From assembly GCA_001782675.1 (NCBI GenBank), contig MFPJ01000043.1, positions 1 to 55,103 on the forward strand: 55,103 nt of DNA, in the 5' to 3' direction. This document shows positions 2,449 to 55,103 of this stretch, piece by piece. Position 1 is the stretch's first letter. Each line of letters begins with the position of its first letter. The notes beneath the pieces were generated by a model. That model was not told where the DNA came from. It worked only from the letters and a program-made list of their open reading frames with translations, and searched no databases. Source of the DNA: Candidatus Levybacteria bacterium RIFCSPLOWO2_12_FULL_39_17 (GTDB taxonomy: Bacteria; Patescibacteriota; Microgenomatia; Levybacterales; GWA1-39-11). The position numbers and the translations under genes are program-made.

Positions 2449-3374
2449 AGTCTTTGAATCAATCCAAGAAAAGTTCCAAAAATGACCGCAATGTCCGAGG
2501 TTAACTGTAGTAATGGCAAGTAGATAAAAGCCGCAAGATGCTTGACATATTTATAATTTTTATAGATTGACCAAGCTATGTAAACAGATAATAGATAATA
2601 GATTATAGATAATAGAACATTTGATTTTGTCAAAATATAAACAGCAATCAATATAAATCCGAATAAGTATCTTATAAAGAGAACTGGTGTTTGCGGACGA
2701 ATATAAAAAGCTCGACCATCACCTGTTGCGTAATTGAAAAATTGCCCAAATGCTTGAAAAATATTTTTTCTTTGGGGCCAATAAACAATTGCGCTCTTAG
2801 CGAACGCGAATTTTAACCCGGCATTTTTTAGTTTTTTGTCAAACACTAAATCTTCACATGTGTCAAGCTCTTCAGGATAACCACGTACCTTCTGCCATAC
2901 CTCTTTTCTAAAAGCAACAGAACGCGATGATGGCAAAAAGGTCTTAGGATTAACACGGTCAGGCATAGTGCAGGTATAGGTCGCGAGACATTTTTCAAAA
3001 ATTGAAGTTGTAATTGGTTTGTAAAATCCCCCCACTATATCTACGCCTTTGTTTTCAAATGGTTTTTTAATATTTTTAATCCAACTCCTGTCAAGCACAC
3101 AACCCGCATCCGAAACCGCAATTACTTCTCCTTTCGAATTTCTAATTGCCTCATTCCTCCCCACCGACCTATTCCCTTCTTTGTTTATAATTTTTACATT
3201 TTTATTGGAAATTGGAAATTGGAAATTGGAAATTACCGACAATGTATTGTCGGTCGATCCTCCATCAACAATAATAACTTCATCCGGGTAAACAGTTTGT
3301 TTTTTTATCGAATCAAGAAGTTTGTTAATAGTTTTTTCTTCATTAAATACGGTCGTAACAAATGATATTTTCAT
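2418..3374 (-). CDS. Family 2 glycosyltransferase with C-terminal TM segments
   Basis: FVTTVFNEEKTI, DGGSTDNT, GRNEAIRNSKG, CEDLVFDKKL; hydrophobic C-terminus; convergent 31-bp overlap with the epimerase gene. Confidence 0.88.
   Translation of the reverse strand: MKISFVTTVFNEEKTINKLLDSIKKQTVYPDEVIIVDGGSTDNTLSVISNFQFPISNKNVKIINKEGNRSVGRNEAIRNSKGEVIAVSDAGCVLDRSWIKNIKKPFENKGVDIVGGFYKPITTSIFEKCLATYTCTMPDRVNPKTFLPSSRSVAFRKEVWQKVRGYPEELDTCEDLVFDKKLKNAGLKFAFAKSAIVYWPQRKNIFQAFGQFFNYATGDGRAFYIRPQTPVLFIRYLFGFILIAVYILTKSNVLLSIIYYLLSVYIAWSIYKNYKYVKHLAAFIYLPLLQLTSDIAVIFGTFLGLIQRLYSLNERSEK
2586..2613. repeat. Heptanucleotide tandem repeat AGATAAT x4 inside a GT2 gene
   Basis: AGATAAT AGATAAT AGATTAT AGATAAT. 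Confidence 0.88.
3207..3254. repeat. Heptanucleotide repeat GGAAATT x4 plus adjoining perfect palindrome ACCGACAATGTATTGTCGGT, inside a GT2 gene
   Basis: 28 bp of perfect heptads at 3207-3234, 9-bp perfect stem at 3235-3254; encodes STDNTLSVISNFQFPISN. Confidence 0.92.
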
Positions 3375-9760: not shown

Positions 9761-12641
9761 TTTTCCTGATTACTTGGAACTTGTCAGATCTAATCAAATT
9801 ATCAACCAAAGCTTTTCTCTTTATGTCTTCTTCGAATTTTCCCGGCCAGAAAGGCAATTGAACATCAACTTTTTCATTTAACTTTGTGCCCAAAGTCTTT
9901 CTTTCGGCCTGAATTTGCCTTATTATTTCCCTTGCCTCCCCCGCTTCAATATCAAGATTTTTCTCCGTTGTGTCTCCTTTCACTTTATAATCTTGAGCAT
10001 TTCCGCTAAAACTTAATTCATAAACATTAACCTCATCAAGAACTATTCTTAGAACTTCCCTCTCTACTTCTTCTGGCCCCTTATATTCAAGCTTTCTTAT
10101 GGGAATACGAACCCTAATTCCTGATCTTTTTCGAAAGGATAAGACTTGCGAAGAAAGATTTATAGCGCTTAGCATCTCTACTTCAAGTTTCTCGTTAATT
10201 AATTCCTCATTTGCGGTAGGCCAATTCTCAAGATGAACAGATTCTCCATTCGTCAAATTTCTGTAAATCTCCTCAGAAAGAAATGGCGTGATCGGAGCAA
10301 GAAGCTTAGACAATGCAGCTAAAACTTCATAAGAAGTACTGTAAAAAGTCAATTTGTCATCTCCATTCGCTGTTGATCCAACTCTGTCTCTTGATCTTCT
10401 TATGTACCATGTTGATAACCTGTCTATAAATATTTGGAGTTTATTGATAGCAGAAACAGTATCGTAATTTTCCAAATCTGAGGTAACATTTTTTATTAGA
10501 TTATTTAGAAGAGAGATTATCCATTTATCCAAAACATTATTTGAAATTTGAAATTTGCCCGCCCCGCTTCGCTTGGCGAGGCCGGGGAAATTTGAAATTT
10601 GAAATTTATCAATACTTGCGTAGCTTACAAAAAAATTATAAACATTCCATAAAATCAACATCATCCCTTTTACTTGATTTCTGTATTGTTCCTCTGAAAT
10701 CAAAATATCTTCTCCGTTCATCACGGAACTGCCCATAAGGTAGAGCCTTAGAGCATCTCCCCCATAAGTTTCGAGCATTAGTTTTGGATCGGGATAGTTC
10801 CCATAATTTTTGCTCATTTTTCTCCCATCGGTACCCAAAATCACTCCTTCCACAGTCACATTTTTAAATGCGGGAGATTTGTAAATTGCTGCGCCAATAA
10901 CATGGAGTACATAAAACCAAGCTCTTATCTGGCCGGTATATTCCGCTATAAAATCAGGTGGAAAAAAATCAGATAATTTTTCTCCTTTATTGAATGGGAA
11001 ATGGCGTTCGGCAAAAGAAGCCGACCCCGCCTCTATCCAGCTGTCTAAAACCTCAGGTGTTCTCTTTGCATCCTTACCGCATTTTTTACATTTAACGATG
11101 ACTTCGTCTATTTCCGGTTTGTGGAGTTCGGGGATTTTTTGTCCACTTGCCTCCTCAAGTTCCGAAATGGATCCTGGGACAAACCTTTCTCCGCATTCAC
11201 ATTCCCAGACTGGAACGGGGGATCCCCAATACCTGTTCCTTGAAATATTCCAGTCGGGTGCATTCTCAAGGCTTTTAAGAAACCTCCCGTACTTAAAATG
11301 TTTCGGAAACCAATTAATCTCCTCATTTGTTTGCTTCATTAGAGGTTTTAAGTCTTGAACATTAACGTACCATGCATCAATTGGAGCATAATAAAGTCTC
11401 GCGTGGCATCTCCAGCAAAGGGGAACGCTATGGGACAGTTCCTCGTTTTTATAGATTAAGCCTCGGGAGAAAAGGTCTTCGTTTACCGATTTATTTGCTT
11501 TAAGATAATACATTCCTCCAAATTTAGGAACATCCGGTTTTATAACCCCCTCTTCATCAATATGCATTTCTATATGTATCTTTTGCTCCCGCATTACTTT
11601 CAAGTCTTCTTCCCCATACGCGGCAATCGTAACAACCCCTGTGCCTTCATCGGCAGTCACAAAGTCACCACCTATAATTTCAAACGCTTTCTCTCCGGGT
11701 TCTATCGGGTAATAATCATAATGCGGGACAAACTTTTTACCCACTAGCTCTTTTCCCTTTAATTCTTCTATGATCCCATAAGGCTCTTTGACCATTGATT
11801 CAAGAGTGGATTTTGCGAGTATATAATATTCGTCACGCACTTTTATTTTAACGTAGGCAAGTTTTGGATTTACTGCCAATGCGGGAGTCGCAATTTTATT
11901 CCAGGGGGTTGTTGACCATGCCAAAATAAATGTTTTTCCTTCTCCCTCAATCTGGTATTTGTATGTCGTAGCCGAATCCGCAATTTCTTTGTAGTTCTCA
12001 GGATCCATTGCTACTTCAAAATTTGAGATTGGAGTCGCGCAGTGAGGGCAATACAAAGTAACTCTCAGGCCTTTATACACATAACCCTTATCATACATTT
12101 GCTTAAAAACCCACATTACAGACTCCATATAGTCGATATTCCAGGTTTTATAAGCATTTTTAAAATCTACCCAACGGCCAATATGGTCCACATACCACTC
12201 CCATTCACCCGATATCTCATTAACATATTTTTTACATTCTTCAATAAATTTCTTGACACCAACTTTTTTCTCAATCTCTTTCTTGCTCTTTATTTCCAGT
12301 TTCAGCTCAACTTTATTTTCTATTGGTAAACCATGGCCGTCCCATCCCCAAACGCGTCGAACTCTGTACCCCTTCATTGTCCAGTAACGACAAAAAAGAT
12401 CTTTGTGGATACTCCCCAAGAGATGCCCGTAATGAGGCATACCGGTTACAAAGGGTGGCCCATCAAGAAATGTCCACTTTTTTTCGGTAGGACGGGATTC
12501 TATGGATTTTTCAAAAATTTTATTTTTTTTCCAGTATTCGAGAATCTCTTGTTCCAGTTTTGGAAAATCAACCTTTGGAGAAACGGGTTTAAATCCCGCA
12601 CCATTTTTAAATTTTACTTGCAAGTCTTTATCATTAGGCAT
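9753..12641 (-). CDS. ileS: Isoleucyl-tRNA synthetase (contains a repeat-derived in-frame segment)
   Basis: DGPPFVTGMPHYGHLLGSIHKDLFCRYWTMKGY (HIGH-region), DGRKMSKNYGNYPDP (KMSKS), WDGHGLPIENKVE. Confidence 0.96.
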   Translation of the reverse strand: MPNDKDLQVKFKNGAGFKPVSPKVDFPKLEQEILEYWKKNKIFEKSIESRPTEKKWTFLDGPPFVTGMPHYGHLLGSIHKDLFCRYWTMKGYRVRRVWGWDGHGLPIENKVELKLEIKSKKEIEKKVGVKKFIEECKKYVNEISGEWEWYVDHIGRWVDFKNAYKTWNIDYMESVMWVFKQMYDKGYVYKGLRVTLYCPHCATPISNFEVAMDPENYKEIADSATTYKYQIEGEGKTFILAWSTTPWNKIATPALAVNPKLAYVKIKVRDEYYILAKSTLESMVKEPYGIIEELKGKELVGKKFVPHYDYYPIEPGEKAFEIIGGDFVTADEGTGVVTIAAYGEEDLKVMREQKIHIEMHIDEEGVIKPDVPKFGGMYYLKANKSVNEDLFSRGLIYKNEELSHSVPLCWRCHARLYYAPIDAWYVNVQDLKPLMKQTNEEINWFPKHFKYGRFLKSLENAPDWNISRNRYWGSPVPVWECECGERFVPGSISELEEASGQKIPELHKPEIDEVIVKCKKCGKDAKRTPEVLDSWIEAGSASFAERHFPFNKGEKLSDFFPPDFIAEYTGQIRAWFYVLHVIGAAIYKSPAFKNVTVEGVILGTDGRKMSKNYGNYPDPKLMLETYGGDALRLYLMGSSVMNGEDILISEEQYRNQVKGMMLILWNVYNFFVSYASIDKFQISNFPGLAKRSGAGKFQISNNVLDKWIISLLNNLIKNVTSDLENYDTVSAINKLQIFIDRLSTWYIRRSRDRVGSTANGDDKLTFYSTSYEVLAALSKLLAPITPFLSEEIYRNLTNGESVHLENWPTANEELINEKLEVEMLSAINLSSQVLSFRKRSGIRVRIPIRKLEYKGPEEVEREVLRIVLDEVNVYELSFSGNAQDYKVKGDTTEKNLDIEAGEAREIIRQIQAERKTLGTKLNEKVDVQLPFWPGKFEEDIKRKALVDNLIRSDKFQVIRKNA
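10543..10607. repeat. Composite element inside ileS: GAAATTT x2, ~30-nt GC-rich imperfect palindrome, GAAATTT x3
   Basis: Plus strand GAAATTTGAAATTT-GCCCGCCCCGCTTCGCTTGGCGAGGCCGGG-GAAATTTGAAATTTGAAATTT; translates in frame as KFQISNFPGLAKRSGAGKFQISN. Confidence 0.9.
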
Positions 12642-30183: not shown

Positions 30184-31070
30184 ATTTTTTCAATTGTTCT
30201 TAATTTTGCGCTCCTTGCCCGCCTGTTTTCTCTTATTTCTTGAATCTTAGGCACGATCGGTTTTTTATTTGTCAATTCGGCAGAACCGCTAAAAACCAGT
30301 TTTCTAAAAAAACTTTTGACAATTCTATCTTCAAGGGAGTGGAAGGAAATGACCGAAAGCCTTCCGCCGCCGGCCAGAATTTCAAACCCCCCTTTAAGTC
30401 CTTTCTCCAAATTTTCAAGTTCGCGATTGACCGTAATTCTCAATGCCTGAAAAATCCTTGTTGCCGGGTGTCTACGGGCAAGCCTTCCGGTTTTTTTTCC
30501 TCGAACCGATTCCGCAACAACATCCGCCAACTCCCCTGTTGTATTAATCGGTCTCAATCTACGCGCCCTGACAATACTGTCAGAAATGGCGCGAGAATTT
30601 GGTTCCTCACCCAATTTTGAAAAAATTTGATAAAGCTCATCTTTATTCCAACGACTAACAATTTCCCAAGCTGTCAATTCAGAATCCTTGGACATCCTCA
30701 TATCCAAAGGCTCATTTCTTAAGAAGCTAAAACCCCTACCCGATTCATCAAGCTGGTAACTTGATATTCCAAGGTCAAACAATATCCCGTCCGGTTTTTC
30801 AAAATTATTTAAATGTGCAATTTCCTTAATATCCAAAAAATTCCCCCTAACCAAAACCAATTTTGAATTTTGAATTTTGAATTTTGATTTTTCTCTAACA
30901 TATTCAATCGCCTCCGGATCTTGATCAATCCCTAATACAATTCCTCCCTCTTCGATTATTGCCCGAGCGTGTCCTCCTCCGCCGATTGTCGCATCCATAT
31001 ACTTTCCGTTGGCCCGAATTTTAAGCGACTCTATAGCCTCTTTTAAAAGAACCGGTTTATGAAATATCAC
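30180..31070 (-). CDS. rsmH: 16S rRNA (cytosine1402-N4)-methyltransferase
   Basis: HKPVLLKEAIESL, YMDATIGGGGHARAI, DGILFDLGISSYQLDESGRGFSF, RIFQALRITVNRELENLE, ISFHSLEDRIVK. Confidence 0.96.
   Translation of the reverse strand: MIFHKPVLLKEAIESLKIRANGKYMDATIGGGGHARAIIEEGGIVLGIDQDPEAIEYVREKSKFKIQNSKLVLVRGNFLDIKEIAHLNNFEKPDGILFDLGISSYQLDESGRGFSFLRNEPLDMRMSKDSELTAWEIVSRWNKDELYQIFSKLGEEPNSRAISDSIVRARRLRPINTTGELADVVAESVRGKKTGRLARRHPATRIFQALRITVNRELENLEKGLKGGFEILAGGGRLSVISFHSLEDRIVKSFFRKLVFSGSAELTNKKPIVPKIQEIRENRRARSAKLRTIEKI
30861..30888. repeat. Heptanucleotide tandem repeat TTTTGAA x ~4 inside rsmH
   Basis: TTTTGAA TTTTGAA TTTTGAA TTTTGAT; encodes SKFKIQNSKL. Confidence 0.9.
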
Positions 31071-46568: not shown

Positions 46569-47717
46569 TTATTGATTTAATTGGGACTTATATATTCCTA
46601 GGGTTTCTTTGGCCATTTTCTTCCAGGAAAATTTCTTCGATTGTTCGAGTCCCTCCTTAATTAATTCCGATCTGGATTCCTTTGTTAATTTAAATACTTC
46701 TTCCATTCTTTTCCTGATTTCGTCGGGATCATTTGGGTTAAAGTAAATTGCGCAAGCTTCGCAAACTTCCCTATGGACCGGGATATCGGAAGCAATAACT
46801 ATGGAACCGACAGACAAAGCCTCAACAGAAGTCAAAGAAAATCCTTCCATAAAAGATGGAACAACTACCCCTTTAGAATTTTGATACAAAGAAATCAGCT
46901 CCTGATCGTCAACATCTTCAAGAAAAATTATATTTTCTTTCAAGTCCAGACTAAGCACAAGTTTTTCTATTTTTTTGAAGAAAAAATCTTTTTTGCCAAC
47001 GAGTACAAGTTTCACATGTCTTGTCTCAAAATCATTAATCAACATTTTGAAAGCAAAAAGAAGATTCTCTATATTCTTGTGGGGATAATAATTCCCAACC
47101 CTCACAAAATACTCCCTTTCGATATTTTTTATACCTGCCTTGCCGGCAGGCAGGTTAAATTTTTTATTTTTTATATTGCTACCGAATCCTCCTTCGTAAA
47201 TAACTTCAACCTTATCCGAATTTATGCTCGGAAAGGCTTTTAAGACTTCGTCCCGAACGGCATTTGAAGGAACTATTATTTTCTTTGACTTACGAACGGC
47301 ATTTGATAAAACCGCTTTGTATCCGAGTCTTTTGGCTAAATACAAAGGATAAGGAAGCGTTGAGGCTCGGCCGGTCGCGTAATTTTTAACAATTAAATCG
47401 TGCAAAGTAATAATGTAAGGCCTTTTGTAAAATATAGGGACGGAAAAATAAGGGAAGTGAACCAAGTCAAGATTTTCCATATTTAAAACTTTAGGAAAAT
47501 TGACTTGCTCGGAAATCGAATGCCAGGGAAAATCTGCATCAACAATTGACATTTGACATTTGACATTTGATAGATTCATGCCTTTTCGAATAGAGGGATG
47601 GATAAATAGAACGTACTCATTCCTGGAATTGATCAGAACCAAATTCGAAACTAAATTTCTGACATAACGTCCCACTCCTGTTTCATTCCATAATCTTGCG
47701 TCTATCCCGATTCTCAT
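46569..47717 (-). CDS. Glycosyltransferase family 4 (contains repeat-derived segments)
   Basis: GIDARLWNETGVGRYVRNL, VPSFMEGFSLTSVEALSVGSIVIASDIPVHREV. Confidence 0.92.
   Translation of the reverse strand: MRIGIDARLWNETGVGRYVRNLVSNLVLINSRNEYVLFIHPSIRKGMNLSNVKCQMSIVDADFPWHSISEQVNFPKVLNMENLDLVHFPYFSVPIFYKRPYIITLHDLIVKNYATGRASTLPYPLYLAKRLGYKAVLSNAVRKSKKIIVPSNAVRDEVLKAFPSINSDKVEVIYEGGFGSNIKNKKFNLPAGKAGIKNIEREYFVRVGNYYPHKNIENLLFAFKMLINDFETRHVKLVLVGKKDFFFKKIEKLVLSLDLKENIIFLEDVDDQELISLYQNSKGVVVPSFMEGFSLTSVEALSVGSIVIASDIPVHREVCEACAIYFNPNDPDEIRKRMEEVFKLTKESRSELIKEGLEQSKKFSWKKMAKETLGIYKSQLNQ
47124..47175. repeat. Composite element inside a GT gene: TTTTTTA / CCTGCCTTGCCGGCAGGCAGG / TTTTTTA x2
   Basis: Palindrome at 47134-47154 flanked by A/T heptads; encodes NKKFNLPAGKAGIKN. 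Confidence 0.75.
47546..47570. repeat. Heptanucleotide tandem repeat TTGACAT x3.6 inside a GT gene
   Basis: TTGACAT TTGACAT TTGACAT TTGA; encodes SNVKCQMSIV. Confidence 0.88.
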
Positions 47718-49936: not shown

Positions 49937-51436
49937 TCATTTCAGTTTTAGTATCAAATATGCTTCGCTTGATGCAACAACCGGATACATTGTTCCAAAA
50001 CCTTTAAAATCACTTTGTGTCGGATTTGCAATCACCAAATAATTCGCACCCATTTTTATCAAGTCCTCTATCGGCTTCTCAAAAACCGGCCAACCGGGTC
50101 TTCCAATATGATACAAAAATGAAGTGCTGCCGTCGTATGGCGCAATGACAACTGCGTCTTTTGGCAAAATTTCATCTGCTTTTTTCCCTGCCGCAACCAT
50201 TCCCCTATCATTTATATTGAAAAAATCTCTCACCCCTCCGCCAAGTCCCTTTTTGCTTATTCCAAACCAAGCAATAAAAAATGACAGAAAAATTAAAAAA
50301 ACCGTAAAAGTTTTGGCAAGATTATTTTTTCCGAACTTTTCGAATAATAAACCGGCTCCAATTCCGCAAATTATTGATATTGTAGGAATTATCAGAATCT
50401 GATAGTAGTCATGCTGAACATTTCCTGTCGCTATTACTATTAAATAAAGAAGTGATGAAGCAATAAAAGATACAAAAAATCCCCAATTCTTCATACCTTT
50501 TAATCCATAAACGCCTGCCGCCAAAAAAATAACACCCAAATAGCCAAGAATTAAACGCGTTATTCTTTCATAGAAGATCCATCTGAAAAATGCAGGCCTG
50601 AATCTGATCCCGTTTCCATTGAAAAGCCAATTCGACGCGGGGACACCTTGGGGATATTGAAAAATCCAATTTCTCCATAAGATTAAAGGTACCAAGGATA
50701 TAATCGCAAAGAGCCAAAGCTGCCAATTTACAATAAATTTCGCACCGAACTTCTTATGTGCCAGATAAACCATGGGGATCGCAAAAAAAAGCGCATAGGG
50801 TTTCAAAAGAAATGCTAAGGCAGTAAAAACAATAGAAAGAATAAAGTATTTTTGATTTTTGATTTTTGATTTTTCTTCGATCCACTTATCAAAAAAATAA
50901 ATTCCTGCCAGAATTGATGCCACCATTGACGGATCAGGCAAAATTGTGCGACCGAAATAAATTGAGAATGGCAAGAAAAGCATAAAGCAAGCTGCAAAAA
51001 AAGCAGAGATTTCATTGGAATATTTTTTTGTTAGAAGAAAAATAAAAAAAGCAGAAGCTAGCGTTGCAAAAATAGAAATTAATCTCCCCCATTCTTCAAG
51101 ACTCAAACCTGTACACCCTCCGGGTGGATTAGCTTGACACCTATTCTCCGAAAATATGTTGAATAATCCTGCCTGAACGGTGTTATATATCGGAAATTCT
51201 ACGAAACGAAAACCTTCGGGATTATCAATGCCTGATTGAACATTTGAGATGTCATAATATTTTGGATATAGAATATTTATTCCATCACGGACGAAAATTT
51301 TTGAAACTGCCGAAGTATCCGATTGGCGCCATGAATGCCAATCTGCAACAGGACCATCAAATCGATATAAACGAACTAAAAAACCTACAAAAAAGATACC
51401 GATCAGACCGGCAATTTTCAGCCTATGCATTACCAT
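49937..51436 (-). CDS. ArnT/PMT-type (GT39/GT83-like) membrane glycosyltransferase
   Basis: ADWHSWRQSDTSAVSKIF, EFPIYNTVQAGLF, ~10 TM segments. Confidence 0.8.
   Translation of the reverse strand: MVMHRLKIAGLIGIFFVGFLVRLYRFDGPVADWHSWRQSDTSAVSKIFVRDGINILYPKYYDISNVQSGIDNPEGFRFVEFPIYNTVQAGLFNIFSENRCQANPPGGCTGLSLEEWGRLISIFATLASAFFIFLLTKKYSNEISAFFAACFMLFLPFSIYFGRTILPDPSMVASILAGIYFFDKWIEEKSKIKNQKYFILSIVFTALAFLLKPYALFFAIPMVYLAHKKFGAKFIVNWQLWLFAIISLVPLILWRNWIFQYPQGVPASNWLFNGNGIRFRPAFFRWIFYERITRLILGYLGVIFLAAGVYGLKGMKNWGFFVSFIASSLLYLIVIATGNVQHDYYQILIIPTISIICGIGAGLLFEKFGKNNLAKTFTVFLIFLSFFIAWFGISKKGLGGGVRDFFNINDRGMVAAGKKADEILPKDAVVIAPYDGSTSFLYHIGRPGWPVFEKPIEDLIKMGANYLVIANPTQSDFKGFGTMYPVVASSEAYLILKLK
50849..50869. 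repeat. Heptanucleotide tandem repeat TTTTTGA x3 inside the ArnT/PMT-like gene
   Basis: TTTTTGA x3 followed by TTTTTC; encodes KSKIKNQK. Confidence 0.88.
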
Positions 51437-54673: not shown

Positions 54674-55103
54674 ACAATACTTTTTAATGCTTCTTTATAG
54701 CTAAGGACTAAATATTTATTATTTATTATTTTACCCAGTAATACAAGAACAGATGCTTTAAACACAAGAAGTGATTTTATCAAAAGTAATGATAAGTTAT
54801 TTCCATGTTTTTTATTAAAATAGATAAGTCCTTTGTAAATATTTTTAATTGCAAAGCTTCTACTGGAGCTTCCTTGACCTTTGTGAAGAATAATTGCGCT
54901 CGGGGAGAAATAAGTTTTATAATTTTCTTTTTTTGCGCGCAAACATAAATCCATATCTTCAACATACATAAAATAATTTTCATCAAATCCCCCTAGGTTT
55001 CTAAATACATCCGAGCGAACCATCATAAACCCACCGCTCACAAAATCGACCTCCTGAAGTTGACCGGGAGAAAATCTGAACCCTAAGGCCTCATCCAACC
55101 CCA
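54670..55103 (-). CDS. Family 2 glycosyltransferase, C-terminal part (N-terminus beyond window edge)
   Basis: FVSGGFMMVRSDVFRNLGGFDENYFMYVEDMDLCLRAKKENYKTYF; frame open to the window end. Confidence 0.88.
   Translation of the reverse strand, partial: GLDEALGFRFSPGQLQEVDFVSGGFMMVRSDVFRNLGGFDENYFMYVEDMDLCLRAKKENYKTYFSPSAIILHKGQGSSSRSFAIKNIYKGLIYFNKKHGNNLSLLLIKSLLVFKASVLVLLGKIINNKYLVLSYKEALKSIV

Follow-up and report, generated by a model that had tools for sequence, protein, structure and literature searches.

Very short dispersed hairpin-like elements of 21 to 27 nt, the SDRs, were reportedly described in heterocystous cyanobacteria by Elhai et al. in 2008, where they are often embedded in tandem heptamers. 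In the same account they are said to be sometimes nested in other repeats, to be confined to a cyanobacterial subgroup, and to have a structure backed by compensatory changes. Passages of PMC4390886 and PMC3116915 cite these cyanobacterial SDRs. Other small repeats share one or another of their properties. RPEs are palindromic elements of 100 to 150 bp that occur in frame in unrelated protein genes of Rickettsia and Wolbachia (PMC3767692, PMC10969869), and REP/REPIN sequences are short GC-rich dispersed palindromes with RAYT transposases (PMC3116915). Heptanucleotide repeats are known in Xanthomonas and Nostoc (PMC4692102), and slippage has been proposed for the TAACTGA heptamers of Beggiatoaceae (PMC4679880).

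The feature described here lies in the ileS gene of a Levybacteria (Microgenomates) genome of 907 kb in 47 contigs, on a stretch of 55,103 nt that is called the window. Direct reading of this DNA and of its ORF bears out the arrangement given in an earlier note, wherein two GAAATTT units (10543-10556), a GC-rich core, and three further GAAATTT units (10587-10607) follow each other in frame across positions 10543 to 10607. The C/G at 10587 is shared and can be assigned either to the heptad array or to the core. The encoded peptide is free of stops and reads ...SYASID-KFQISN-FPGLAKRSGAG-KFQISN-NVLDKW..., and the protein matches the TIGR00392 equivalog profile with 758.8 bits against a cut-off of 621.4. 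The insert sits just N-terminal of the Pfam Anticodon_1 domain (705-847), which agrees with the linker before the anticodon-binding region proposed earlier. In an AlphaFold model that is poor overall (mean pLDDT 48), and from which the local loop alone was used, the insert is predicted to be coil between helices 650-677 and 703-724. The sequence GAAATTTGAAATTT occurs three times in the window, every time at the ileS feature (0.04 in shuffles). With a GC content of 0.83 versus 0.37 for the window overall, the core exceeds every other 30-mer there, and it contains no stop codon in any of its six frames. With a probability of about 0.7, we favor the reading that the feature is a 30-nt palindromic, SDR-like dispersed element that inserted in register into a pre-existing heptad array encoding a variable linker of IleRS.

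Table 1. Features of the ileS locus and of other loci. Positions given without a locus handle refer to the window.
Feature	Location	Strand	Basis
ileS, isoleucyl-tRNA synthetase, host gene, 962 aa	9753..12641	-	ORF; TIGR00392; Pfam tRNA-synt_1 + Anticodon_1
Array half 1 (gene direction), (AAATTTC)2 + AAATTT	10588..10607	-	Sequence read
30-nt core CCCCGGCCTCGCCAAGCGAAGCGGGGCGGG, imperfect hairpin, ten codons	10558..10587	-	95 aligned copies
Array half 2 (gene direction), (CAAATTT)2 + CAAAT	10539..10557	-	Register with half 1 once 30 nt are excised
Further in-gene heptad arrays	3204-3234, 30859-30887, 47546-47570, 50848-50874, 54713-54731		
Hairpins directly beside heptad arrays	3235-3254; L166:18135, L183:15663, L180:18790, L179:8005		
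Other in-register inserts	L169:17593, L181:4787 (own genome); L083:7816, L088:6443, L151:7944		
Stand-alone Y1 genes, each between two similar palindromes that are specific to it	L228, L230, L231, L232, L233, L239, L242		

Alignment with relatives distinguishes the core from its flanks. The IleS orthologs of seven other genomes of the family, with 70 to 75% identity, all lack the core, and at the linker they are shorter by exactly 10 residues in four relatives and by 7 to 11 in the other three. Compared with those four, the net difference is 10 amino acids, or 30 nt, which corresponds to the core alone and not to the insertion of about 22 amino acids that the earlier note had envisaged. The collection includes two congeners of the window genome, G001 and G002. 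In G001 the DNA of the ileS linker is a degenerate heptad run (CAAGTCA-CAAGTCG-CAAGCCA), and it is similar in G002 and in G007. Because the linker DNA of these relatives is already a degenerate heptad run, the array at ileS is probably older, and the core was probably added later. Among IleRS proteins the sequence of this linker varies, and its position is in a loop. Since the core adds ten codons in a loop, we infer that it is tolerated in IleRS, where the ten additional amino acids are apparently harmless.

A search with the IUPAC form of the core consensus, CCCCGGCCTCGC-NNN-GCGAAGCGGGGCGGG, yielded 93 database stretches, two of which are probably chance matches, and the reversed-pattern control gave none. 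The hosts include Levy-, Davies-, Gottesman-, Curtiss-, Kuenen-, Komeili- and Portnoybacteria, as well as Nitrospirota/Thermodesulfovibrionia, Stahlbacteria/WOR-3, Brocadiaceae and a few others. Thus, the core is a multi-copy family common to several phyla. The search elsewhere in the same genome that the earlier note had proposed brings the number there to four copies. G001 holds three, the other genomes of the family none, and one Nitrospirota genome 20. The distribution is patchy, since in a sample of 380 genomes from the phylum only 3 carry the core. This recurrence bears on a rival explanation, in which ordinary variation in linker length or an assembly artefact has left a microsatellite that happens to include GC-rich sequence. 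The IleRS linker is indeed a variable loop, but the same 30 nt turn up in several phyla and in many assemblies made independently, one of them under a chromosome title (CP070686.1), and both frame and flanking homology are intact, such that this explanation is exceedingly improbable. Chance or a microsatellite alone is ruled out by the recurrence of the core across phyla together with the empty reversed-pattern control.

Outside the loop triplet, the core is identical in 83 of 95 aligned copies, and because of this uniformity compensatory changes cannot show. The triplet itself differs by host group, with a tendency toward CAA in Patescibacteria, toward TCC in Nitrospirota and toward CTT in WOR-3. 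An imperfect hairpin is predicted for the core, with a stability that is not above that of shuffled sequence of the same composition (z about -1.5). The four Brocadiaceae copies and some others adjoin another palindrome or are nested in its loop. An RNA gene was considered and rejected, as Rfam returned a single weak chance match next door. A search of the literature yielded no paper on elements of this kind in candidate phyla that contained three or more of the search terms.

The relationship between core and heptads is one of register. When the 30 nt are excised, the heptad register is restored, wherein the identity of the flanks is 0.70, 0.61 and 0.47 at offsets of 7, 14 and 21, compared with 0.20 to 0.33 elsewhere. 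In 67 of 95 copies the heptads on either side of the core match in register, versus a mean of 12 and a maximum of 20 after shuffling, and about a quarter of the copies lie outside heptads. The heptads directly following the core mostly begin with C, and the insertion point is mostly T/C, with no fixed target tetranucleotide. The heptads around the core are not the same in all copies, and a single genome can contain several kinds (CAAATTT, CAATTTC, CTGACAA). MITEs are marked by terminal inverted repeats and a target-site duplication. Direct repeats of often about 12 to 14 nt flank the core on both sides, and because these repeats are themselves heptads, a target duplication of 7 or 14 nt is indistinguishable from a pre-existing array. 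Other inserts of 19 to 48 nt, several of them hairpins, also lie in register inside heptads (control 0).

Judged by these features, the SDRs would be the nearest kind to the core, which is likewise often embedded in heptads and sometimes nested in other palindromes. Unlike an SDR, the core measures 30 nt by heptad register rather than 21 to 27 nt, is mostly intragenic and in frame, and is nearly identical in sequence across phyla; none of the 93 stretches is titled as a cyanobacterium.

Heptad arrays constitute a class of repeats throughout the genome. In 450 kb of the window genome we counted 41 exact tandem arrays of period 7, in addition to arrays at the multiples 14 and 21; all remaining periods gave 0 to 3 arrays in the same 450 kb, and simulated sequence gave 0 to 1. 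The excess of period 7 is not confined to the vicinity of cores, as loci of Patescibacteria and Nitrospirota show it elsewhere too. Most arrays lie inside ORFs, and those lacking a core are far commoner than those bearing one. The orthologous site in G001 is heptad-like for 11 of 15 testable arrays of the window genome, versus 4.7% of control segments, and for 5 of 8 in the reverse direction. At such orthologous sites the arrays are often equal in length and different in unit. One change runs through all repeat copies at L180_18815 (AAATTCA versus AAAATCA), as would be expected from homogenization by slippage or conversion; the GT2 and RsmH rows of this comparison, which had taken up a wrong locus of the window genome, were left out. 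Like the heptanucleotide repeats described in other bacteria, the flanks of the core consist of tandem 7-nt units, with period 7 over-represented; they differ in that many different units are used, mostly in ORFs, at positions that are common to species while the units change.

Perfect hairpins with a stem of at least 7 adjoin 7 of the 41 arrays versus 0.7 expected, about tenfold the frequency at random positions. These hairpins have unrelated local sequences, for example ACCGACAATGTATTGTCGGT, and one arm may have been copied, in inverted form, with the flank as template. The further arrays of the window are hosted by GT2-like, rsmH-like, glycosyltransferase and other genes, most with a heptad-like run of a different unit in G001. 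Elsewhere in the same genome, at L180:1391, five CAATTTC heptads lie in a gene whose protein we take to resemble phosphoglycerate kinase by its HLGRP motif, and the corresponding heptads of the G001 ortholog are of the AGTATTA type.

Of 92 copies of the core, 60 fall within an ORF that is 150 aa or longer, and all three phases are represented. Pfam domains that span it or flank it on both sides include GatB, MurT, MurD, CobB/CbiA-type amidotransferase and CofH/MqnC, and GT9, GyrA, DnaG, LepA and other domains likewise lie across or on either side of it. Another copy in the window genome is inside an ORF of 1196 aa. MurT of G001 contains the core together with heptads, and MurT of G002 and of the window genome contains neither, which constitutes a second, independent gain of the core. 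Because these MurT relatives are without heptads as well as without the core, the two parts may also be acquired jointly.

MurT is also an argument for an RPE-like composite, in which heptads, core and heptads were inserted as one mobile unit of about 65 bp, as the earlier note had supposed. Heptads and core are missing together there from the congener and the window genome, and the flanking repeats are often 12 to 14 nt long. However, the heptad sequence varies between copies even within a genome, the length difference at ileS from four of the relatives is accounted for by the core, congeners have heptads at that site, and coreless arrays are far commoner. We thus regard a single composite unit as quite improbable; the mobile part is the 30-nt core, and the heptads belong to a separate genome-wide repeat class. 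The likeness to RPEs drawn in the same note holds for an in-frame palindromic element in an essential enzyme, and extends from ileS to many other protein genes, but the core is only 30 nt long, nested in heptads, and distributed over several lineages of other phyla. Among the 93 core stretches there is no Rickettsia or Wolbachia record. The peptides inserted by RPEs lie at the protein surface; for the IleRS insert, the poor model predicts a coil between two helices.

For the preferred reading of a 30-nt element entering existing arrays, a mechanism can be proposed in which arrays in tolerant protein loops would serve as landing sites, and selection would keep those insertions that are frame-neutral. 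During replication, a template switch guided by microhomology between dispersed heptad arrays would copy the core from array to array. In IleRS the core would be functionless, and it would spread as a neutral or selfish element. Movement by such template switching would explain the register, the lack of a clear target-site duplication and the lack of a carrier, and we consider it quite possible, if somewhat short of an even chance. It would not account for the core copies outside heptads. The broader proposal, that the core represents a transposase-free 30-nt class spanning phyla, in which template switching uses self-homogenizing arrays as in-frame landing pads in essential proteins, is more doubtful.

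The main alternative regards the core as REP-like, a palindrome that a genome-encoded Y1 (HUH/RAYT-type) transposase would move in trans as single-stranded DNA, with no target duplication and with a preference for heptad arrays. Like REP/REPIN sequences, the core is a short, GC-rich, dispersed palindrome. Y1_Tnp genes are present in 14 of 15 screened genomes, with three in the window genome; the mostly T/C insertion point is compatible with this mode of movement, and nesting in hairpin loops would suit single-stranded targets. Yet the core is mostly intragenic, unlike REP/REPIN, and it was found beside none of the Y1 genes in 13 regions inspected, most of which are bordered by palindromes of their own. 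G009, with its 11 copies, has no Y1 match (this genome is an incomplete bin), and a fixed target tetranucleotide is lacking. We therefore view movement by a Y1 enzyme as unlikely; no cognate transposase for the core was found.

An RNA intermediate with reverse transcription has reportedly been suggested for the cyanobacterial SDRs, and the core might spread in this manner, as an RVT_1 protein is encoded by the window genome and six others. However, among 15 genomes that bear the core or are congeners, 8 gave no RVT_1 match, including G001 with three copies of the core and G008 with 20, which makes this route very unlikely. Viral, phage and plasmid collections gave no match to the core, although a GC-rich 31-mer may escape these searches through the low-complexity filter of BLAST.

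The core looks like one of the smallest known mobile DNA elements, sited inside proteins. The small, reduced genomes of Patescibacteria carry a pair of linked repeat systems by which essential proteins are rewritten, wherein heptad arrays keep to the same protein loops as their sequence changes, and a 30-nt hairpin enters these arrays in step. A nearly identical 30-mer that is spread across phyla, and carrier-free in the collections searched, bears on how the smallest mobile DNA moves. Its copies in IleRS, GatB, GyrA, MurT, MurD, DnaG and LepA also offer a natural set of insertions for testing the tolerance of proteins for a foreign peptide.

Several further observations concern the placement of cores and similar sequences in proteins. 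In WOR-3/Stahlbacteria (L119, L121, L132, L144) the core lies near the C-terminus of several proteins with a similar motif, IYDVTGRLVKSFNL, and was perhaps copied along with that domain. Prepilin-like proteins of the window genome (L169:16505, 17141, 17593) have heptads in the leader, immediately ahead of the GFTLIE motif, and one such protein at L138 has the core as well as heptads in that position. Finally, the window carries another GC-rich palindrome, CCTGCCTTGCCGGCAGGCAGG, at 47130-47155, which lies in frame in a glycosyltransferase gene and encodes the peptide NLPAGKAG.
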